Source: Pedobacter sp. SYP-B3415 (GTDB lineage Bacteria > Bacteroidota > Bacteroidia > Sphingobacteriales > Sphingobacteriaceae). Taken from it: DNA of 64,000 bases. Position numbers and translations under genes: made by a program. Shown here in pieces: positions 7,159 to 16,534 of the stretch. The notes beneath the pieces are model-generated. The model was not told the DNA's origin. It ran no database searches and saw nothing but the letters and a program-made list of their open reading frames with translations. The stretch covers positions 1 to 64,000 of the forward strand of contig NZ_RXNQ01000007.1 of NCBI RefSeq assembly GCF_004138205.1, read 5' to 3'. Position 1 is the first letter of the stretch. Every line of letters starts with the position of its first letter.

Positions 7159-8448
7159 TCAAATTGCTTCGGCAACGACAAACGTACTGCCGCCGATGAA
7201 AATCAGATCATTTCTCGCGGCACTTTGTTCGGCCGCTGCCCGCGCTTTAGTCACACTTTCAAACACCTCGCCCTCCAGCCCCTGCAAAGCTGCCAGTTGC
7301 TGCAGCATCTCAGCTGCGAGTGCCCTTTCCAGTTTCGGACTACAGAAGTAATACTTAGCGTGTTTTGGCAGCATGCTTAATACACCCGTCACGTCCTTGT
7401 CGCTTACCATGCCGAAAACCATATGAAGGTTTTCGTATGGCGTATCTGATATATTTTGAAGTACCTCCCGGATCCCGGCCTCGTTATGACCCGTATCGCA
7501 GATAACCAGCGGCTCTTTTGATAGCGTCTGCCAGCGACCCTGTAGTCCGGTGTTGCTTTTTACAGCGTTCAGACCGTTTCTGATTGACTGTTCATGCAGC
7601 TCACAAAGAGCAGACTGGCGCAGCACTTCGGTAGCTGCAATGATTGTGCGGATGTTTTTTTCCTGGTAGGTTCCGCTGAGGTCGCAGGTCAGTTCAGGAT
7701 AAATATCTGCCAGATCACGACGTACTGAAAGCTTAAGCCGGTCCTGTTGCCTGCTTACTCCGAATGTGCTGAGCATCTGGTCGGCAAAATAAATCGGTGC
7801 CTGCATGTCGGCGGCTTTCTGGAGAAAAACGGCAGTTGTTTCAGCCTGCGTTTCACCGATGACAACCGGGATGCCTTTTTTGATAATGCCCGCCTTTTCT
7901 GCAGCAATAAGCGGCAAGGTATTGCCAAGCAGCGCCACATGGTCCATGCTGATGTTTGTAATGACAGAAAGAACAGGCTGGATAATGTTCGTTGAGTCCA
8001 GTCGCCCGCCCAATCCGACTTCGACAACAGCAATTTCTACCCCTGATTGCGCAAAATGCCTGAAAGCGAGTGCGACCGTAACTTCGAAAAATGATGGCTC
8101 AAGCTCCTCGATGAGTTGCCGGTTCTGTTCGATGAAATCGACCACGTCCTGCCTGGCGATCATCTTTCCGTTTACACGGATGCGTTCGCGGAAATCTTTC
8201 AGGTGCGGAGAGGTATAAAGGCCGGTCCGATAGCCTGCTTCCTGCAGGATGGAGGCCATCATATGTGAACAGGAACCTTTTCCGTTTGTTCCTGCTATAT
8301 GAATAGAACGAAAGGTTTGTTGTGGATTTCCCAGTGCCTCGCACAGCGCAAGGATATTGCCGAGGCCTTTTTTGATTGCAGCAGCGCCAACCCGGGTAAA
8401 CATGGGCAACCTGCGGTAGAGGTACTCAAGCGTTTGATCGTAGTTCAT
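7159..8448 (-). CDS. folC: bifunctional folylpolyglutamate/dihydrofolate synthase
   Basis: ATP-dependent ligase of the Mur ligase superfamily that adds glutamate to dihydropteroate and to folates, in the cytosol. The P-loop GTNGKGSCS is visible near residue 50, followed by the family segment around LYTSPHL.DFRERI. Further Mur-ligase blocks are VEVGLGGRLDSTN and MDHVALLGNTL, and the C-terminal domain carries CDTGHNEAG. The length of 429 residues is typical. The ATG at 8448 is preferred over a GTG two codons upstream, because a -7 element (8457-8464) ends eight bases before it. It can therefore be transcribed separately from the tonB cluster upstream, whose last gene ends at 8491. Confidence 0.95.
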   Translation of the reverse strand: MNYDQTLEYLYRRLPMFTRVGAAAIKKGLGNILALCEALGNPQQTFRSIHIAGTNGKGSCSHMMASILQEAGYRTGLYTSPHLKDFRERIRVNGKMIARQDVVDFIEQNRQLIEELEPSFFEVTVALAFRHFAQSGVEIAVVEVGLGGRLDSTNIIQPVLSVITNISMDHVALLGNTLPLIAAEKAGIIKKGIPVVIGETQAETTAVFLQKAADMQAPIYFADQMLSTFGVSRQQDRLKLSVRRDLADIYPELTCDLSGTYQEKNIRTIIAATEVLRQSALCELHEQSIRNGLNAVKSNTGLQGRWQTLSKEPLVICDTGHNEAGIREVLQNISDTPYENLHMVFGMVSDKDVTGVLSMLPKHAKYYFCSPKLERALAAEMLQQLAALQGLEGEVFESVTKARAAAEQSAARNDLIFIGGSTFVVAEAI

Positions 8449-8456
8449 AAACACTG

Positions 8457-8490: not shown

Positions 8491-9303
8491 TTATTTCACT
8501 TTGAAATTAAAGACTACAACGCCGACCTGCTGATTGTTACCGGAAGCTGAGCGTGTCAGTGTAGCGCCCATAACTGCCTCCCGGCATTTTTCCCACAACG
8601 CCTTGTCAGACAGCGTCGTTCCTTTTACCCCCGCCTGTGCATTTGTAACAATGCCATCTGCATTGATGTAGATACGAACGGCAATCTTACCGGTTTTCTG
8701 ACCATCATCTTTTGGCACAACGAGGTTAGTGAAGCTGCGCAGTTCTATCGGTTTGTTGCCGAAGCCGGAACCACCTTCACCATAATTGGTTGCAAGCGGG
8801 TCTCCATCGCGATCTCCCTGGTTGCCTGGGGTGCTGCCGGTGCCATCGCCACGGCCCATCCCTTTATTTGCTTTGCCTTTATAAAGTGCGTTCTGGTTGA
8901 TGGTTTGCTCGACAGGCTTGGTGTTGTTGGAGGCATTCGGGGCAGCGTTAGATTTGTTATCTTTTGTATTAACGGTTGCCGCGTCTTCGTTATCTTGCGT
9001 AACGACATTTTTGTCGCTCGCCTGTGTGTTTGGTGTAGGCTTTGTTTCCTGCTCGGTAATTACCTTATCAGGCATCTGTCCGTTCGCATTTGGCGCCATT
9101 GAAGGCTCCTCAATGCTTGTATAATCGTCGCCCATCCCTTCGGGCGATGTGCCAAAATTGACAATGACACCGCCTGTACCCAGTTGTTCCTGCGTGAAAG
9201 GGGTTCCGATAAGATATAGAAAGCTGATTGCCAGAAATACGATAAATACTCCGGTAGAGATGGCAAGTGCCTTCGGATAATTATTTTCTTCGCGGTATTG
9301 CAT
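8491..9303 (-). CDS. TonB/TolA-like energy transducer
   Basis: Inner-membrane anchored protein that would carry force from the ExbB-ExbD motor across the periplasm. The 270 residues comprise a single N-terminal membrane helix (about 13-33, ISTGVFIVFLAISFLYLIG), a long low-complexity linker rich in Asn, Thr, Gly and Pro (about 60-190), and a C-terminal TonB-type domain (about 195-270) ending in VGVVVFNFKVK. Its ATG overlaps the exbD stop by one base (TAATG), so the two are translationally coupled. It is the last gene of the six-gene cluster that starts at 16534. The partner is probably the barrel at 11804-13507, by inference from position. Confidence 0.85.
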   Translation of the reverse strand: MQYREENNYPKALAISTGVFIVFLAISFLYLIGTPFTQEQLGTGGVIVNFGTSPEGMGDDYTSIEEPSMAPNANGQMPDKVITEQETKPTPNTQASDKNVVTQDNEDAATVNTKDNKSNAAPNASNNTKPVEQTINQNALYKGKANKGMGRGDGTGSTPGNQGDRDGDPLATNYGEGGSGFGNKPIELRSFTNLVVPKDDGQKTGKIAVRIYINADGIVTNAQAGVKGTTLSDKALWEKCREAVMGATLTRSASGNNQQVGVVVFNFKVK

Positions 9304-9704
9304 TACTTTTTCGGTTCTACAGCCAGCACCAGTTTAGCCTTTGCCTTGTTGGCAATATCAATGATCTGGATGGTCGTTTCTGTAGGAATATCCCTATAAA
9401 CATACAAAATAATGGTCAATTCCTGTGCCTCTTTTGTATATGCTTCGATCTTACTTTGCAGCTTTTCCAAATTCACAGGCTGCTTTTCGATGAAGTAATT
9501 TTTGTTTTCATCGATTGAAACCGTGATCGTCTTTTTTGCAACCAGCTGTTCGCCCGATTGTGAACGGGGCAGCAGCAATTTTACCACTTCAGGATTGGCT
9601 ACAGCTGATGCCAGCAGGAAAAACAACAACAGGAAGAACATGATGTCGTTCAGGGCAGACGTACTGACCTCTACAGTTCCCTTTTGTCTTTTTCTAAAAT
9701 TCAT
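9303..9704 (-). CDS. exbD: ExbD/TolR-type biopolymer transport protein
   Basis: Small proton-channel subunit of 133 residues. One membrane helix near residues 18-36 (LNDIMFFLLLFFLLASAVA) contains the conserved Asp of the ExbD/TolR family right at its start (LNDIMFF), followed by a periplasmic ExbD domain. With ExbB it forms the proton-driven motor for the TonB-like protein next door. The start overlaps the exbB stop by 4 bp (ATGA), and the stop overlaps tonB by one base. Confidence 0.9.
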   Translation of the reverse strand: MNFRKRQKGTVEVSTSALNDIMFFLLLFFLLASAVANPEVVKLLLPRSQSGEQLVAKKTITVSIDENKNYFIEKQPVNLEKLQSKIEAYTKEAQELTIILYVYRDIPTETTIQIIDIANKAKAKLVLAVEPKK

Positions 9705-10414
9705 CGTCCGGGTTCTTCAAGTAAGTCAATAAACTCAATTGCATCGGTCTCCATTTTCAGGATGATCTTTTCTATCATCATATTCAGCACATGGTAACCC
9801 ACGTAAGCAACGATACCTATGATCAGACCCGAAGCTGATGTTATCATCTTTGTATATAGACCGCCTGAAATTGTACCGATTTCGATTACGCCCTTAATAG
9901 ATACCTGGTGGAAGATTGAAATTACACCGATAATGGTTCCCACAAACCCAAGCATGGGTGCAATACCCGCAATGATTCCCAGAATACCTACGTTTTTCTC
10001 AAGCTTTGATACTTCCAGTTTACCAATATTTTCAATAGCGCCTTCAATATCCTTGATAGGCCTGCCTACGCGCAGAAGACCTTTCTGCAACATGCGGCCA
10101 AGTGGTGTGTTGCTGTTTTTGCATAACGCGATCGCTCCGTCGAGCCTTCCCGACAGGATGCTTTGTTTCACCTGCACCATCAGATTGGTTTCGTTCCGCG
10201 ATGCTTTGCGTATGGTGAGATAACGCTCGATAAAAATAACCAAACCGAGAAACGCAAGTATCCCGATCGGGATCATTACCCAACCGCCTTTGATGATCAG
10301 GTCAATAAAACGAAGCTCTTCAGGCGGAGCGGATAAAACATTTGGCGCTGCGCTCTGAGCGCTGTCTACGACCTGCTTCACGGTATCGGTGGCACCTTGC
10401 AAAAATGTAATCAT
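9701..10414 (-). CDS. exbB: ExbB/TolQ/MotA-type proton channel
   Basis: Polytopic inner-membrane protein of 237 residues and the stator-like partner of ExbD. Three hydrophobic segments are visible: around residues 45-65 (GGWVMIPIGILAFLGLVIFIERY), 145-165 (GIIAGIAPMLGFVGTIIGVI) and 190-212. The block GIAPMLGFVGTIIG is the MotA/TolQ/ExbB signature. It lies 8 bp after the SPOR-domain gene and overlaps exbD, so this is one transcription unit. Confidence 0.93.
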   Translation of the reverse strand: MITFLQGATDTVKQVVDSAQSAAPNVLSAPPEELRFIDLIIKGGWVMIPIGILAFLGLVIFIERYLTIRKASRNETNLMVQVKQSILSGRLDGAIALCKNSNTPLGRMLQKGLLRVGRPIKDIEGAIENIGKLEVSKLEKNVGILGIIAGIAPMLGFVGTIIGVISIFHQVSIKGVIEIGTISGGLYTKMITSASGLIIGIVAYVGYHVLNMMIEKIILKMETDAIEFIDLLEEPGR

Positions 10415-10422
10415 GTGTTAAA

Positions 10423-11772
10423 TTAATTTGGTTTTTTTGTGTGTACATAGGCCCCGTTACTGCCTGATTTTTTACGCAGCGCGGGTAGGTTTTGTTCTGC
10501 TTCTGCATAGGATTTGAAAGACCCTATGCTTATATGGATCATCGGTCCGCCGATCTCAACAATATGGGCTTTAACACCGCGTTGTTTCATTTGCTGAATA
10601 AAGGCGGCTGCTTTTTTTTCAGTTTGCCAAGCTGAGGCAATGACCTCGTAACTTGGCTGTCCATTTGATTTGACGGTCTTTACCGTATCCTGCTTTGGTT
10701 TTACCGGAGCGGAAGCGGATGGTTTTTTGATTGCTCCCGTATCTTTTTGTACACTGACAGTATCCCGTGGAATGCTGTCTGTGACCGGCGGTAAAGCGGG
10801 TCTGCTCATTTCGCTTGTCGTTTCGGCTGGCCTGTTCAGGCCGAACCATTCGGGTTTTAGAAAATAAGCAGCAGCAAGGGCTGCAAGAACAATCAGGATT
10901 CCGATCAGGATTTTCATACCGGTTGATATGCCCTTACGGTCCTCGGTATAAACCGGCGGTGCAGCTGGCGGCTCTGTGATCTCGGTTGGTTCTACTTTGT
11001 CAAAGACCCAGGCTTTTTTCGGTAACTCCTGGTCGCCGGCAGTTGTCGCCGTATTTTGTTCCTGAGGCCCGGCCGTAGCTGGAATCTCGTTTACCGTAGG
11101 CATACTGCTACCTGTTGCTACAGGAACGGCTTCGTCTTTACCGTCATGCTGATCAGTTACCGCTGACGTGTCCGGCTTCGTTTCCGGCTCATCAGCTTCG
11201 GCAGCGGCCTCTGTCGGTAATTCATCGTTACCTTCGGTGACAGCTTCCTCACCAGTCTTTACATCGATCGATTCGACCACAGGGTCGGTCTCTTCCGAAT
11301 TGTCGGCGGCCTGTAAGGCATCCTGCGGAGCAGAAGGCACCTCATCTCCGGCTGGTGTTTCAAACACTGTTTCTGCCATCGGCGGCAAGCCATAAAATTC
11401 TGAGGCAGTCGCGTCTGCATTGGCTTCGAAAACTATTTCGTTCCCGGCCATACGAAGAATGCCTAGTCCGGAAAGCACATACGCTCCCGAAGTATGAACA
11501 GCTTCTTTGACCTGCCGGGAAAATTCCCCGACGGCCTTCCGGGCGGAATCCTGGTCAAGTTGTCTTTCTGAAGCGAGGAGGCCGGGAAGCAGTTTATCTT
11601 CCTGGAGTTCCGGTACGAATGCAAGTACAGATGCCGGTGGAACAAACATGCGTTGGGCGGCATCATACCTTCCCGGAACTTTTCGTTTCAGAAATGTACC
11701 CAATCCGTCAACACCAACTTCTTTGTGGTGGTTGAGAAGGGAAGAAAGGTAAATGGTGAGATCCATGCGCAT
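10423..11772 (-). CDS. HU-CCDC81-like and SPOR domain membrane protein
   Basis: A 449-residue bitopic protein with two recognisable ends. Residues 1 to about 130 look like the bacterial HU/CCDC81 region (IYLSSLLNHHKEVGVDGLGTF and later VLSGLGILRMAG). A long acidic, proline/threonine-rich stretch follows. One membrane helix lies near residues 285-305 (MKILIGILIVLAALAAAYFL). A C-terminal SPOR domain (about 370-445) begins SYEVIASAWQTEKKAAAFIQQMKQRG. SPOR domains bind glycan strands lacking stem peptides, often at division sites, so the C-terminal half should sit in the periplasm on peptidoglycan. It lies between the barrel and exbB in the cluster, 8 bp before exbB. A second ATG two codons in is equally possible as the start. 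Confidence 0.82.
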   Translation of the reverse strand: MRMDLTIYLSSLLNHHKEVGVDGLGTFLKRKVPGRYDAAQRMFVPPASVLAFVPELQEDKLLPGLLASERQLDQDSARKAVGEFSRQVKEAVHTSGAYVLSGLGILRMAGNEIVFEANADATASEFYGLPPMAETVFETPAGDEVPSAPQDALQAADNSEETDPVVESIDVKTGEEAVTEGNDELPTEAAAEADEPETKPDTSAVTDQHDGKDEAVPVATGSSMPTVNEIPATAGPQEQNTATTAGDQELPKKAWVFDKVEPTEITEPPAAPPVYTEDRKGISTGMKILIGILIVLAALAAAYFLKPEWFGLNRPAETTSEMSRPALPPVTDSIPRDTVSVQKDTGAIKKPSASAPVKPKQDTVKTVKSNGQPSYEVIASAWQTEKKAAAFIQQMKQRGVKAHIVEIGGPMIHISIGSFKSYAEAEQNLPALRKKSGSNGAYVHTKKPN

Positions 11773-11803
11773 TAATCATTTGGGTTTGTACCGGCTTCGC
11801 TGT

Positions 11804-13507
11804 TTAAAACGAATAAGTCAGACCGCCAAAGATATTTAAACCGTTGTATTGATAGTAAAGAAATTTACTGTATTTGTTGTTCAAAAGGTTGTTTGCACGT
11901 GCAAAAACCGTGAACTGTTTATTGATCCTGTATTCTGCACCTGCACCGATGTCCGCAAATCCGCTGATGGTAACGGTTTGTTCGATCCCCGGATCGGGTA
12001 CTACATATTGTCCGGCAGGAACCGGCGCAGTTGTATAGATCTTCGCTTTGCTGTCATCCTGTACAGCCAGTGAAGCGTTGAAAGATATTTTATCAGTGAT
12101 ATTGTATAAAAAGTTTGAACTCAGGCGCATCTGCGGTTTGAACCATGCTGCACTTTCCGATGCCGGTTTGTAATTATCAAAATTCAGTTTTCCGGTCCAG
12201 CGCAGATCGTCACTAACCTGCACCGAAAGTTCGCCTTCAATGCCGGTAAGTTTCATGTTTCCGAAGTCATAGATCACATCAAAGCGGCTAAAGTCATCGA
12301 AATTGTTTACGAACAGGGGCATATCAGTAAGCGTTTTATGATAGAAGCGCGCTTTATAGCCAAAACCCGGACCGCCGGTGCCTTTGATGCCGCCGCTTAT
12401 GCTCATTTTTTCTACCGTATTCCTGATATTAATATTGGTATTTAACCAGGGATTTTCATCTGTAAAGTTCTTCAGCGAATTCCTGTTCACGTCGCCTTTA
12501 ACTTCGCCGAAGATCTGCAAATAGTCTGGAATCAGCGTAAAGTCTGCTGTAATGGCCGGGAAGAGGCGGGTGCTTTCGTATAAGCCGAATTCCTGTACAA
12601 AGTTGATTCCGGCTGTAATTTTCACACCATTCGCCTGCAGGCGTATGTACGGGTTTAATCGCAGGATGTTGTTTTTAACGCTGGTCAGTGCATCGCGTGT
12701 ACTTCCAAACTCACCGCCTGCTGCCAGCCCGAGATTGAAGCTGTTGATGCGTTTATTCACGTAACCGTTTAAAGTCAGGTAATTTTCTTTTGCCGCATAT
12801 TGATCTCCCCACAGGTAACCGTTCAATTTTACAGCATAACTGAGCGCATCTTCGTCTTCAGTAAATTTATTGATTACCTCGCCTTCAGCTTCAAAAAAAT
12901 TAAAGCGCTGTTTTGCCGGATCGGGATTGAGATCGACCGGGGCATCCGGATTAAACCCATAAAAGTTGAGGCCGTTTCGCTCAAAATTCAGGCGGCCGCT
13001 TACGGTTGCCATGTCAAGAATGGTGCGTCCGAAAACAGAAAGCTCCTGTTTGTCAAACCGCTGGCCGCGGATGGTACCGCCCTGTCCGAAATGGCGGAAA
13101 TAACCGCCAACCTGCAGTGCTTCGTCTTTTCCATTGGCTACGTAAGCTTCAAGCAGGGAAGTTGCGTTCATGCCAAAGCCTCCCTTTACATAGTTGTTGA
13201 CCAGCTCTGTAGCTTTTTCGTCTGCAACCTGCTGGGCCTGCAATTTCAAAATGTCGCTGTTTAGCTCGAGCTTGCGGTCTGTGAGGCTGTAGTTGAGCCT
13301 GGCTTTATAAGTTTTGACATCGTCGAGGTTCGGACTTCTGCGTAATTTAAATGCTTCAGCAAGAATAGGTTTATAGGGACGAACTACCTCAATCTCTTCT
13401 GCAACTACCTTTTTATCTTTATCATCTTCTTTTTTGTCCTGGGCTAGCGTAACCGCGCCCGTGGCCATAAGAAGCATTGTTGTATATAAGAACTTATTCG
13501 GTTTCAT
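11804..13507 (-). CDS. plug-less TonB-receptor-like outer-membrane barrel
   Basis: A 567-residue outer-membrane protein with a signal peptide ending ...GAVTLAQ. A charged N-terminal stretch (about 23-90) is followed by a long run of amphipathic beta strands. The C-terminal segment ANNLLNNKYSKF...YNGLNIFGGLTYSF is the classical end of TonB-dependent receptors, with the terminal aromatic residue needed for barrel insertion. A plug domain of normal size is not seen: the space before the strands is only about 90 residues, against about 150 or more in full receptors. It starts 6 bp after the TPR gene and precedes the SPOR/ExbBD/TonB genes. Its ligand is unknown, and a structural rather than transport role is possible. 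Confidence 0.8.
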   Translation of the reverse strand: MKPNKFLYTTMLLMATGAVTLAQDKKEDDKDKKVVAEEIEVVRPYKPILAEAFKLRRSPNLDDVKTYKARLNYSLTDRKLELNSDILKLQAQQVADEKATELVNNYVKGGFGMNATSLLEAYVANGKDEALQVGGYFRHFGQGGTIRGQRFDKQELSVFGRTILDMATVSGRLNFERNGLNFYGFNPDAPVDLNPDPAKQRFNFFEAEGEVINKFTEDEDALSYAVKLNGYLWGDQYAAKENYLTLNGYVNKRINSFNLGLAAGGEFGSTRDALTSVKNNILRLNPYIRLQANGVKITAGINFVQEFGLYESTRLFPAITADFTLIPDYLQIFGEVKGDVNRNSLKNFTDENPWLNTNINIRNTVEKMSISGGIKGTGGPGFGYKARFYHKTLTDMPLFVNNFDDFSRFDVIYDFGNMKLTGIEGELSVQVSDDLRWTGKLNFDNYKPASESAAWFKPQMRLSSNFLYNITDKISFNASLAVQDDSKAKIYTTAPVPAGQYVVPDPGIEQTVTISGFADIGAGAEYRINKQFTVFARANNLLNNKYSKFLYYQYNGLNIFGGLTYSF

Positions 13508-13513
13508 TTGGTG

Positions 13514-16500
13514 TTATTTGCGGTTTAACTCTTCCAGTTTCTGTTTTGCCGTAGGGATGATATCGTCTTTACCCTCGTAATTGTCAATTACGCTGAGCAG
13601 CGTGCTTTTCGCCTGCAGGTTATCTTTCAAAGCGACATAGTTGTCGGCAAGCAGGATAAAGGACTTTGCTACCCAGTAATCATGCGAAGGCATGTTATTG
13701 ATGACATCAAAACAGGTTTTCTGAGAGGTTTTGTAATCGTTCTTTTTGTATTGCAGCAGCGCAATATTGTATTTGGCTTCTGCCGCTGCAACTGTCTTGG
13801 TGACTTTGGTTACGTTTGTAAATGCTTTAAGGGCAGCTTCATTATCACCTTTGATAAGATAAGCTTTACCTTCATACAGGCCGGAACTGTTTTTTTCTTC
13901 TTCAGAGGCTTTTTCCGACTCCCTGATCAGCTTGACATATTTCAGCATATCATCTGCGGCATTCAGCGCATCGTAAGCTTTCAGCAGGTTATTGATGGCA
14001 TAATTGTAATGTGCTTTATAGTCGGAAGTCGTTTCCAGACGTTTCAGGTACACGATCGCCTCATTGTACTTTTTCTGGTCAAGATACAGGCGCGAGATAC
14101 TAAGTAACGAACGTTCAGTGTAATCGCTGGTCCAGTCGTTCAGAATAAATTCATAGTCGCTAACAGCTTCTTCCGGTCTTCCCATTTTAACAAGGGACTC
14201 TGCACGGATGAATTTCGCTTCCTTATCATGTATAGCTTTCGGGAACTTGTCAAAATAAGCATTTACTGCTTCGAAGGCGCCTTGTGCATTGCCCTGCAGA
14301 TATAGATTTTTCGCAGCCTGGAAGACGATGTTGTCCTGTTCAGCAGTAGAATAATTGCCGAGTGAGGTTGTGCCTGCGTACGACATAAAGCCGTTGGCAT
14401 CGCCACGGTCTACATAAATATTTTTGATAGATTCCAGCGCTGTTTTTGCTTCGTCGGTGCTTTCGTATTCACGGATTACCTTTTTGAAGGTTTCAAGCGC
14501 CGCATCGTCCTGGTCCTGGTTGTACTGAACGAGGCCAATGGTTACGAGGGCCCGGGGCACATAACTGCTCCGCGGGTATTTGGCGATAAGATCAATCAGG
14601 TCTGACTTGGATTTATCAAAATCGCCCTTGTTGAAATAGGTATATGCGGTTTCGAAACCAGCATCGTCCGCATAGTTGGAATTAGGAAATTGCTTTAGCA
14701 GGGACTGCATGGTCGCGATTTTTGCATCGTGCTGGTTCTCCAGCCCCTGGATCATACCGGTCTGAAAAATTGCGTAATCCTCACTTGAGTTTTTCCGGCT
14801 GATGATACGCCTGTAATAGGTCATCGCACTGCCGTAATTTTTGTTCACAAAATAGGCATCGGCCAGGCGGATGGTTGCATCGTCGATTGTCTTCTGGTCT
14901 TTGTCATTGCCATTCAGGAAACGTTCAAAGTAGGTAGCTGCTTTGCTGTATTTTTCATCTTCGAAAGCTGCGTATGCAAGCGCATAATTAGCAAAATTGT
15001 AGACGTTTGTCTTTTCTGCACCTGGCAGCTGCAGGAATTTCTCAAAAGTACTGACAGATTCGCCGTACTTGCGAAGCTCATACATGGCTTCTCCTTTCCA
15101 GTATGTAGACAGGGCGAGAATCTCATTATCTTCGGGAAACTTTTCCGAACGCAGGAACATTGATAATGCATTTGGGAACGCACGTTCGTTGTAAAATTCA
15201 AGTCCACGGAAATACGTTACTTTTTGATAGGCCTCGCGGGCAGCCGCGTTTTTATCCTGAATCGGTTCGAGAATATCGATCGCCGCCTGGTAATTTTTGT
15301 TCGTGAGCAGCACTTCGCCCAGCAGTGTTTTAGCTTCGTTTATCTTCCTCGAGCGTGGAAATTGTTTAATGAAACCCTGTACAGATTCAAGTGCCTGCTG
15401 ATGAAAATCAAGCTCATAACTTAATTTTGCATAGCTCAGCCAGGCTTCTTCCTGGATATTTTTGTCAAACTCAAGACGCGAGGAACGGAAAAAGGCACTT
15501 CTTGCTTTCGGCTTGTCGTTTAGCTCAACAAGTACCTTCCCAAGCGTATACATGCCATTCTGAAGATACACATCGTCGTTACTAAGTTTTTCCAGGGTAC
15601 TGGCAGACTGTCGATATTTCTTCAGCTGATAAAGTGTATAGCCATACTGGTAAACGAGCAGGTTATTCTGAACCTTGGGTTCGCGCGAAAAATAGGCTGC
15701 GAAATAAGGCTCTGCGCTTTTGAAGTCGTTTTTAGCAAAATAAGAAGCGGCAATGATACTTTGCATTTCTGCCTCGTATGTCTGCTTTGTTTGCTTCAGC
15801 ATGGGGATGGCATAGGCCAGCACATCGTCATACCGTTCATCCAGGTAATACATTGATGTAATGTAATATGGATAGCTGGCCTCGTAGGTTGGCGACCCCT
15901 TCAGTTTTTCAAAATTGCTAAGTGCCGTCTTGTACTCTTTGTTCAGGTAGTTGATGTACGCAAAATAATAAGTCGCACTTTCCTGATAAGGCGATTCAAC
16001 TTTTTTTACTGCCTCAAAAAGCGGCTCGGCCTTTTCGTAATTTTCTTCAAGGAAATAAGCGTATCCCTGCTTGAATTGATATTCAACACGTTGTTTTCGC
16101 GAGAGGGTAGAAGGGTCGGTCTTCTCGAACCACTCCAGCGCTTTCTTATAATTTTTCTGGTTGAAATAAGCTTTTCCAACATGGAAGTAAGCCAGTTTGG
16201 TGTTGGGATTAAGCGGATAATCGCGAATGAAATTTCTAAACAGGCTTTCTGCGTCATCATGATTCAACTCTAAGGCACAAACTGCCAGGTAAAATCGTGC
16301 GTTTTCTTTCAGCAGGCTGAGCTCGGCATTGCTGGTTTGCTGGGCGTTCGGTTTGTTACGAACCTGCTCAACGAGTTTGAACTGTTGTGCAGCTGAATTG
16401 TATTTTTCGTGTTCCAGAAGTTCAATTCCGGTCTGATAGTTTTTGTGCAGACTGACGAGTTCGCTAACTTGTCCGAAAGCATTCGAAAACGTACAGGCAA

Positions 16501-16534
16501 GCACCGGCAGAATATAAAAGTATCTTTTGTGCAT
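13514..16534 (-). CDS. large exported tetratricopeptide-repeat protein
   Basis: A 1006-residue protein with an N-terminal signal peptide (MHKRYFYILPVLACTFSNAFGQ). The rest is built almost wholly of degenerate TPR units of about 34 residues, recognised by recurring A.YF...Y..A...F patterns such as AYFNQKNYKKALEWFEK and AYFVNKNYGSAMTYYRRI. Such solenoids scaffold protein complexes, and periplasmic examples include CpoB and BamD. It is the first gene of the cluster and overlies the barrel gene by operon position (6 bp gap). No -7 box with perfect consensus was seen, only TATTTTAG upstream. The partner proteins are unknown; interaction with the neighbouring barrel is an inference. Confidence 0.85.
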   Translation of the reverse strand: MHKRYFYILPVLACTFSNAFGQVSELVSLHKNYQTGIELLEHEKYNSAAQQFKLVEQVRNKPNAQQTSNAELSLLKENARFYLAVCALELNHDDAESLFRNFIRDYPLNPNTKLAYFHVGKAYFNQKNYKKALEWFEKTDPSTLSRKQRVEYQFKQGYAYFLEENYEKAEPLFEAVKKVESPYQESATYYFAYINYLNKEYKTALSNFEKLKGSPTYEASYPYYITSMYYLDERYDDVLAYAIPMLKQTKQTYEAEMQSIIAASYFAKNDFKSAEPYFAAYFSREPKVQNNLLVYQYGYTLYQLKKYRQSASTLEKLSNDDVYLQNGMYTLGKVLVELNDKPKARSAFFRSSRLEFDKNIQEEAWLSYAKLSYELDFHQQALESVQGFIKQFPRSRKINEAKTLLGEVLLTNKNYQAAIDILEPIQDKNAAAREAYQKVTYFRGLEFYNERAFPNALSMFLRSEKFPEDNEILALSTYWKGEAMYELRKYGESVSTFEKFLQLPGAEKTNVYNFANYALAYAAFEDEKYSKAATYFERFLNGNDKDQKTIDDATIRLADAYFVNKNYGSAMTYYRRIISRKNSSEDYAIFQTGMIQGLENQHDAKIATMQSLLKQFPNSNYADDAGFETAYTYFNKGDFDKSKSDLIDLIAKYPRSSYVPRALVTIGLVQYNQDQDDAALETFKKVIREYESTDEAKTALESIKNIYVDRGDANGFMSYAGTTSLGNYSTAEQDNIVFQAAKNLYLQGNAQGAFEAVNAYFDKFPKAIHDKEAKFIRAESLVKMGRPEEAVSDYEFILNDWTSDYTERSLLSISRLYLDQKKYNEAIVYLKRLETTSDYKAHYNYAINNLLKAYDALNAADDMLKYVKLIRESEKASEEEKNSSGLYEGKAYLIKGDNEAALKAFTNVTKVTKTVAAAEAKYNIALLQYKKNDYKTSQKTCFDVINNMPSHDYWVAKSFILLADNYVALKDNLQAKSTLLSVIDNYEGKDDIIPTAKQKLEELNRK

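Follow-up and report, generated by a model that had tools for sequence, protein, structure and literature searches.

A six-gene cluster of Pedobacter sp. SYP-B3415 combining an ExbB-ExbD motor, a TonB/TolA-type transducer, a plug-less receptor-type barrel and an HU-SPOR protein: a candidate Tol-Pal-like machine in Bacteroidota

Outer-membrane constriction without Tol-Pal has been named as a gap for Bacteroidota, and PorE, an outer-membrane lipoprotein, has been proposed as a tether (excerpts of PMC12204202); tol-pal is prominent in Chlorobi (excerpts of PMC7391070). The present study examined a cluster of six genes in a stretch of 64,000 nucleotides (hereafter the window) from Pedobacter sp. 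SYP-B3415 (contig NZ_RXNQ01000007.1, positions 1 to 64,000). The host genome comprises 4.47 Mb in 37 contigs and is rated 99.96% complete. The genes encode a large TPR protein, an outer-membrane barrel, a protein with HU-type and SPOR domains (HU-SPOR), ExbB, ExbD and a TonB-like protein. We found no description of this cluster in the open-licence literature searched. The anatomy of the cluster is firm. From this anatomy, we infer, with a probability of about 0.47, a machine that is driven by the proton-motive force, resembles Tol-Pal and links the outer membrane with both the wall and the inner membrane where the cell divides.

Several described systems resemble the cluster in part. Similar to Tol-Pal, it contains an ExbB/TolQ and ExbD/TolR motor, a transducer with a TonB/TolA domain and a periplasmic TPR protein, and is separate from the nutrient Ton system. 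However, it lacks TolB and Pal, its outer-membrane partner is a plug-less barrel of the receptor type, and the putative wall-binding part is HU-SPOR. The preliminary description of this DNA had likened the genes to Tol-Pal; the likeness held for the motor and for the transducer, but the cluster contains neither TolB nor Pal. The cluster shares with the Ton system and TonB-dependent transporters the motor, a TonB-type transducer and a receptor-type barrel with a TonB-box-like N terminus. In contrast to these transporters, its barrel lacks a plug, its partners include SPOR, HU and TPR proteins, and most genomes of the class carry one strong copy. SPOR division proteins of the FtsN/DedD type have a membrane helix and a SPOR domain, as HU-SPOR does; however, HU-SPOR has two HU-type domains across the membrane and is linked to a TonB-type motor and a barrel. 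Excerpts of PMC12204202 describe two other systems. The PorE/CHU_0125 OmpA fusions are a proposed Tol-Pal substitute from the same phylum with two homologs, below the cut-off, in the host, but they are encoded by separate genes. The vWA force-transducer systems, the function of which is unknown, have a TolQR-like motor and a TPR gene, whereas the present cluster has a TonB/TolA-domain transducer and a barrel.

All six open reading frames of the preliminary description were found on the minus strand (Table 1), and are transcribed in the order TPR, barrel, SPOR, ExbB, ExbD and TonB-like. The tight packing that it reported was also confirmed, with gaps of 6, 31 and 8 bp followed by overlaps of 4 and 1 bp. 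Pfam assigned ExbD (2.1e-25), MotA_ExbB (1.5e-20), SPOR (5.7e-8) and many TPRs. No Pfam family matched the barrel or the TonB-like protein itself, and these two were identified through profiles and predicted folds. A scan for sigma-70 promoters and terminators returned 12 and 14 sites, against shuffle means of 15.1 and 14.5.

The barrel profile matched siderophore receptors in their C-terminal region (3.3e-9). Five of the 29 aligned relatives matched the receptor-barrel family, and none matched a plug family. The AlphaFold2 model of the barrel, built with 32 close sequences, had a mean confidence (pLDDT) of 64. Values were below 50 for residues 16-102; from residue 101 onwards, 29 of 47 ten-residue blocks reached 70-84 and the others 47-69. 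VIA placed residues 102-567 on FhuA 159-714 (Z 21.4, root-mean-square deviation 2.8 over 420 residues) and residues 100-567 on BtuB 133-594 (Z 20.8). We take FhuA 159 and BtuB 133 to be about where their plugs end. Approximately 80 mature residues precede the barrel part. The model lists 26 strand segments, a number that is not fixed at this middling confidence. The predicted structure is a receptor-type beta-barrel without an N-terminal plug, as the preliminary description had anticipated. Residues E40, R43, P44, Y45, K46 and P47 of the N-terminal motif EEIEVVRPYKP were invariant in the 32 close sequences; similar motifs are kept in close relatives and looser in distant ones. We propose a TonB-box role for this motif from its position and its likeness to LKEVVITALG of a SusC-type receptor in L117, in which case it would bind the TonB-like protein.

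ExbB and ExbD of the window exceed the Pfam cut-offs, and Asp20 in the membrane helix of ExbD was kept in all 26 aligned sequences. NCBIfam scores were far below the cut-off and did not separate TolQ from ExbB; the motor is of the TolQ/TolR type at the superfamily level only. The host genome contains a single further ExbB, whose gene clusters with those of two ExbD proteins and of a TonB bearing a clear TonB_C domain (exbB-exbD-exbD-tonB). This separate generic set bears out the earlier proposal that the motor is dedicated. Two samples were used for comparisons: 149 genomes of the host's class and 148 genomes of the phylum. With the dedicated-ExbB profile, 140 of the 149 class genomes scored above 200 bits, and second ExbB copies were below 183 bits among the matches listed. 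In a tree of 46 ExbB proteins, 33 dedicated and 11 generic proteins fell on opposite sides of one branch, and both E. coli proteins (TolQ and ExbB) fell outside; this tree is weak, with a support of 62/61 for the separating branch and long branches. In another locus, the canonical exbB-exbD-exbD-tonB set has a third ExbD-like gene (L069:15445-16035) at a distance of approximately 5 kb.

The transducer of the window was not among the five TonB_C matches of the host, and 8 of its 26 aligned relatives matched this family. Its alignment profile matched TonB C-termini in the PDB set at 2.3e-4 and TolA C-termini at only 0.03. In the AlphaFold2 model (mean pLDDT 58, with block values of 63-92 starting at residue 181), a membrane helix is followed by a disordered region, which leads to a C-terminal domain. 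The first 24 rows of a Foldseek search were all TonB, TolA or close homologs (best E 4e-3, none reaching 0.001), and VIA aligned the C-terminal domain with TonB 9ddz (Z 8.0) and TolA 2x9a (Z 6.8). The model points to a TonB/TolA C-terminal fold, and we counted the protein as a TolA-type transducer. Since the fold scores (Z 8.0 and 6.8) and sequence scores (2.3e-4 and 0.03) run so, TonB and TolA identities were not separable.

The combination of an ExbB-ExbD-TonB set and a receptor-type barrel that carries a TonB-box-like motif may also be read as the ordinary uptake of one nutrient by a Ton system with a shortened receptor. We consider this highly unlikely. Plug families were not matched in any of the 29 relatives, and the separate exbB-exbD-exbD-tonB set is present in the host; the plug-less barrel and this separate set ruled out nutrient uptake as the best interpretation. 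Furthermore, strong barrel matches occurred in 139 of the 149 class genomes, and strong second copies were found, among the matches listed, only in three (G156, G196 and G211). We know of no role for SPOR and HU domains in uptake. In each of G156, G196 and G211, the barrel and the TPR protein both had two strong matches, which lie on different contigs; a TPR-barrel duplication or mixed strains are possible.

The preliminary description had regarded the SPOR protein as a wall binder. The SPOR domain was present; however, two HU-type domains and a membrane helix had been missed. In order, the protein contains two HU-CCDC81 domains, the helix and the SPOR domain. Among 29 aligned relatives, the first HU model was matched by 24, the second by 25 (E 0.01), SPOR by 22 and the ordinary HU family by 16. 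Against the PDB set, the profile of this protein matched HU-alpha (1.5e-6), a sporulation-specific amidase (1.2e-6), FtsN (1uta, 1.3e-5) and DedD (6ztg, 0.0014). Because it has HU domains and one membrane helix, HU-SPOR is probably a bitopic protein of the inner membrane, with its SPOR domain on a membrane-anchored protein. The fused HU domains may contact DNA. The first HU model (PF18174) was detected in 116 of the 149 class genomes, in 113 of them above the cut-off. The combination of HU-CCDC81 and SPOR was reportedly noted in 2017, in a computational survey of proteins with HU domains. In one outgroup locus, a separate HU gene (L065:8228-8560; PF00216, 1.8e-19) lies between the barrel and SPOR genes, and the fused HU domains look as if they were derived from such a gene. 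Elsewhere, a coiled-coil, M23-peptidase-like gene (EnvC-like by eye; L076:3251-4480) lies one gene from HU-SPOR. NCBIfam at 1e-20 gave no match for this neighbor or for the thioesterase-like gene of L076.

The TPR protein has a signal peptide, as judged by eye, and Gln22 was invariant in 14 of 14 aligned sequences. Its nearest named records are from Pedobacter and close relatives (72-79% identical). A CpoB-like nature had been suggested, and the protein did exceed the NCBI YbgF/CpoB model TIGR02795 (197 bits, with the cut-off at 90; the match covers eight repeat stretches). However, the BamD model was also exceeded (106 against 81); therefore, the YbgF match is unspecific and a weak pointer. 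The CpoB coiled-coil family had no match in the Pfam scan of this protein. Identity with PorW/SprE of type IX secretion was rejected (54.7 bits, cut-off 250).

Table 1. Coordinates of the cluster and its features in the window.
Feature	Position	Strand	Remarks
TPR protein, large, periplasmic	13514..16534	-	1006 aa; signal peptide ends just before invariant Gln22
Barrel, TonB-receptor type, outer membrane, plug-less (predicted)	11804..13507	-	567 aa
TonB-box-like motif EEIEVVRPYKP	13367..13399	-	Barrel residues 37-47, disordered N terminus
HU-HU-TM-SPOR protein (TM, transmembrane helix)	10423..11772	-	449 aa
HU-CCDC81_bac_1 domain	11599..11760	-	HU-SPOR residues 5-58
HU-CCDC81_bac_2 domain	11413..11592	-	HU-SPOR residues 61-120; below the Pfam cut-off here
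Predicted membrane helix of HU-SPOR	10849..10935	-	Residues 280-308
SPOR domain	10444..10653	-	HU-SPOR residues 374-443
ExbB/TolQ-type motor subunit, dedicated	9701..10414	-	237 aa; three membrane-like segments
ExbD/TolR-type motor subunit	9303..9704	-	133 aa; invariant Asp20 in membrane helix
TonB/TolA-type transducer	8491..9303	-	270 aa; membrane helix at 9-33, then a long disordered linker; C-terminal domain at about 183-270
folC	7159..8454	-	3' of the ExbB-ExbD-TonB genes

The genes are widespread in the class and beyond. Strong matches to dedicated ExbB and to the TPR protein each occurred in 140 class genomes. A single-sequence barrel search of the phylum sample found all 37 class members and weaker matches outside (55 in total). 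The barrel profile at 1e-10 matched 122 of the 148 genomes; the weaker of these matches, in longer frames, resemble ordinary receptors. The check for conservation in Bacteroidota that the preliminary description had suggested was positive for the genes; however, the gene set was split in most class genomes. Since these genomes divide it into modules, the label of six genes fits some lineages only. The six-gene order recurred in nine loci (L039-L044, L046, L049 and L050) and, among Pedobacter-group loci, in 59 of 80. Some of the other 21 loci were cut by a contig end, while others had the TPR-barrel pair followed by different genes. In two loci (L137:14726-22457 and L117:14726-23018), the barrel is followed by unrelated genes, most of which are encoded on the other strand; HU-SPOR is found approximately 8 kb further on in L137 and was not reached in L117.

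Linkage in the class was counted from best matches, leaving out weak or absent ones (barrel in 10 of the 149 genomes, ExbB in 9 and TPR in 9), and contig ends can hide neighbors in these counts. The TPR and barrel genes adjoined in 123 of the 138 genomes with a strong match to both. This adjacency and the recurring six-gene order exceed a chance arrangement. Adjacency was found in 18 of 112 genomes for barrel and SPOR, in 15 of 114 for SPOR and dedicated ExbB, and in 15 of 135 for barrel and ExbB; all four markers were linked in 6 genomes. The TPR gene lay away from the barrel in 15 genomes, 6 of which have the barrel beside SPOR instead (G181, G203, G235, G246, G264 and G274). Seven outgroup loci with a barrel match (L062-L068) were also taken. 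L067 was dropped because its 664-aa match resembles an ordinary receptor, and L066 had almost no upstream sequence. Barrel-SPOR-ExbB-ExbD-TonB clusters were present in L063, L064 and L068. Because outgroup loci are clustered too, the ancestral gene set was likely clustered. All three genomes of family f68 (G182, G217 and G247) lacked strong matches to the barrel and dedicated ExbB, lacked PF18174, and had the TPR match at a strength of no more than 1.1e-13; each retains one lower-scoring ExbB match. None of the four markers was found in G169, a genome of 0.5 Mb. This joint absence of the four markers fits one machine.

HU-SPOR may instead be a membrane-anchored, DNA-binding regulator that senses the wall and lies near envelope genes by chance, in which case the motor and barrel would do something else. 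Its profile match to HU-alpha and the position of its gene apart from the other markers in most class genomes speak for such a regulator, but the adjacencies to the barrel and dedicated ExbB counted above come from several families, and HU-SPOR also adjoins the barrel in four outgroup loci (L063, L064, L065 and L068). Moreover, it is absent jointly with the rest in f68. We regard this alternative as hardly probable.

Neighboring genes hint at cell division. In three of the six outgroup loci (L064, L068 and L065, from three families outside the class), FtsK and LPG_synthase_TM genes lie upstream on the same strand; they flank LolA in L065 and a gene without a Pfam match in L064 and L068. Of 28 class loci, among which the window is counted, 7 have an FtsE-like gene that adjoins the TPR gene in divergent orientation (L048, L053, L054, L055, L060, L061 and L101). 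Each of the seven scored highest with the FtsE model of NCBIfam (221-247 bits), and the second-best family was at 162-184. As raw counts, these neighbors are suggestive of a role in division. In two loci (L052 and L059), a YbgC-like acyl-CoA thioesterase, assigned by eye, lies near and upstream of the TPR gene; ybgC is part of the tol-pal operon in E. coli. In the host, pyrR- and pyrB-like open reading frames (named by eye) lie upstream of the cluster, and folC and pafA follow downstream in the same direction. folC is a housekeeping gene and probably not part of the machine. It is also found 3' of ExbB-ExbD-TonB in L075, L077, L095, L096, L098, L099 and L105; this link is conserved and unexplained.

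A complete separate tol-pal set, which the preliminary description named, together with ligand transport by the barrel, as evidence that would overturn its interpretation, was not found in the host: TolB_N had no match in this genome, and the sole other ExbB sits with the canonical TonB. Membership of the cluster in a canonical Tol-Pal system was rejected because of the missing TolB_N match. The model was positive in the controls E. coli, Caulobacter and Bacteroides ihuae, and it matched 2 of the 149 class genomes and 7 of the 148 phylum genomes. Four of these seven belong to family f15 and had no barrel match at 1e-10. B. ihuae also matches PF18174. Elsewhere in the host, we detected eight OmpA-family matches, four of which were scanned with NCBIfam. 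Three reached the Pal model below its cut-off; for the fourth, this model was not among the best 25 rows. The PorE/CHU_0125-like proteins could be a passive partner of the machine. A term search of the main texts of PMC3547785 and PMC4072883 returned no relevant passage on the essentiality of these loci.

A number of results weigh against a Tol-Pal-like coupling machine. The cluster itself contains no TolB and no Pal, and the two PorE/CHU_0125-like OmpA fusions of the host, which are below the cut-off, lie away from it. The missing TolB_N match counts little because the model is insensitive, as its 7 matches in the 148 phylum genomes indicate, and B. ihuae, from the same phylum, exceeds the TolB_N cut-off. 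This match, together with the BamD score of the TPR protein, lowers the odds of the Tol-Pal-like interpretation and of its nucleoid-linked form described below. Of the 144 class genomes that carry one or more of the markers, 82 have ExbB, SPOR and the TPR-barrel pair at separate places, and outgroup L062 has the order TPR-barrel-ExbB-ExbD-TonB with no SPOR gene between the barrel and ExbB. In five genomes (G175, G191, G206, G216 and G257), ExbB is present by itself or together with SPOR or TPR but there is no strong barrel, owing to either partial loss or assembly gaps. The HU domains are not constant; PF18174 had no match at 0.001 in 33 of the 149 class genomes, and two f8 clusters (L044 and L049) have a SPOR protein without HU domains at the usual position. 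FtsK was not seen in three outgroup loci (L062, L063, which has other genes at this place, and L066, with nearly no upstream sequence), no FtsE-like neighbor was present in 21 of the 28 class loci, and those found score below the FtsE cut-off of 264.85. An open barrel of receptor size also suggests a channel more readily than an anchor.

This last point leads to the main rival, a TonB-powered channel or exporter, in which the barrel is a pore closed by the TPR protein or its own N-terminal segment and opened by the motor, with proteins, lipoproteins or envelope lipids as cargo to the surface. A plug-less barrel of receptor size with a large TPR protein as its usual partner does resemble a gated conduit and its chaperone. 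In L065, LolA is found upstream, and a kdsB-like gene, assigned by eye, directly precedes the lone HU-SPOR gene in L078, L081, L092 and L108. We also searched 38 chosen genomes for SusD, a marker of surface lipoproteins, and found it in 18. Two of the three f68 genomes, which are without the system, were also without SusD. However, mismatching genomes were found in both directions: a strong barrel without a SusD match in five genomes (G143, G055, G105, G128 and G162), and SusD with a weak or absent barrel in four (G003, G008, G018 and G073). Therefore, the system does not track SusD, and its confinement to SusD-bearing genomes is ruled out by the former five. An exporter also leaves the SPOR and HU domains and the FtsK and FtsE-like neighbors unexplained. 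We regard it as a serious alternative, but unlikely.

If the cluster couples the outer membrane to the wall, we envision the following mechanism. ExbB-ExbD, the composition of which was observed, would use proton flow through Asp20 of ExbD, as expected from the family. The TonB-like protein is predicted to carry force across the periplasm on a disordered linker of roughly 150 residues, and its C-terminal domain would bind the TonB-box-like N terminus of the barrel. The barrel may then act as an outer-membrane anchor that takes the force itself because it has no plug to pull out. The TPR protein, the usual gene partner of the barrel, may cap or scaffold it. HU-SPOR would mark the place: its SPOR domain may read septal glycan, while its HU side, where present, would face the nucleoid and may sense DNA clearance. 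In an extended form of this mechanism, the cluster would be the apparently missing Tol system of Bacteroidota in a new design: a single chain of proteins would reach from the nucleoid (HU) across the inner membrane and wall (SPOR) to the proton-driven transducer, which would pull on the plug-less barrel, and outer-membrane constriction would thereby await chromosome clearance. We speculate on this extension, which is rather doubtful.

The present study describes a widely conserved gene set, which would provide a motor and a transducer as well as a grip on the outer membrane and a reader of the wall, and which is a candidate for outer-membrane constriction in Bacteroidota if Tol-Pal is lacking. 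Furthermore, a natural barrel of the TonB-receptor type without a plug lets one ask whether TonB-type force acts on the barrel rather than on the plug.

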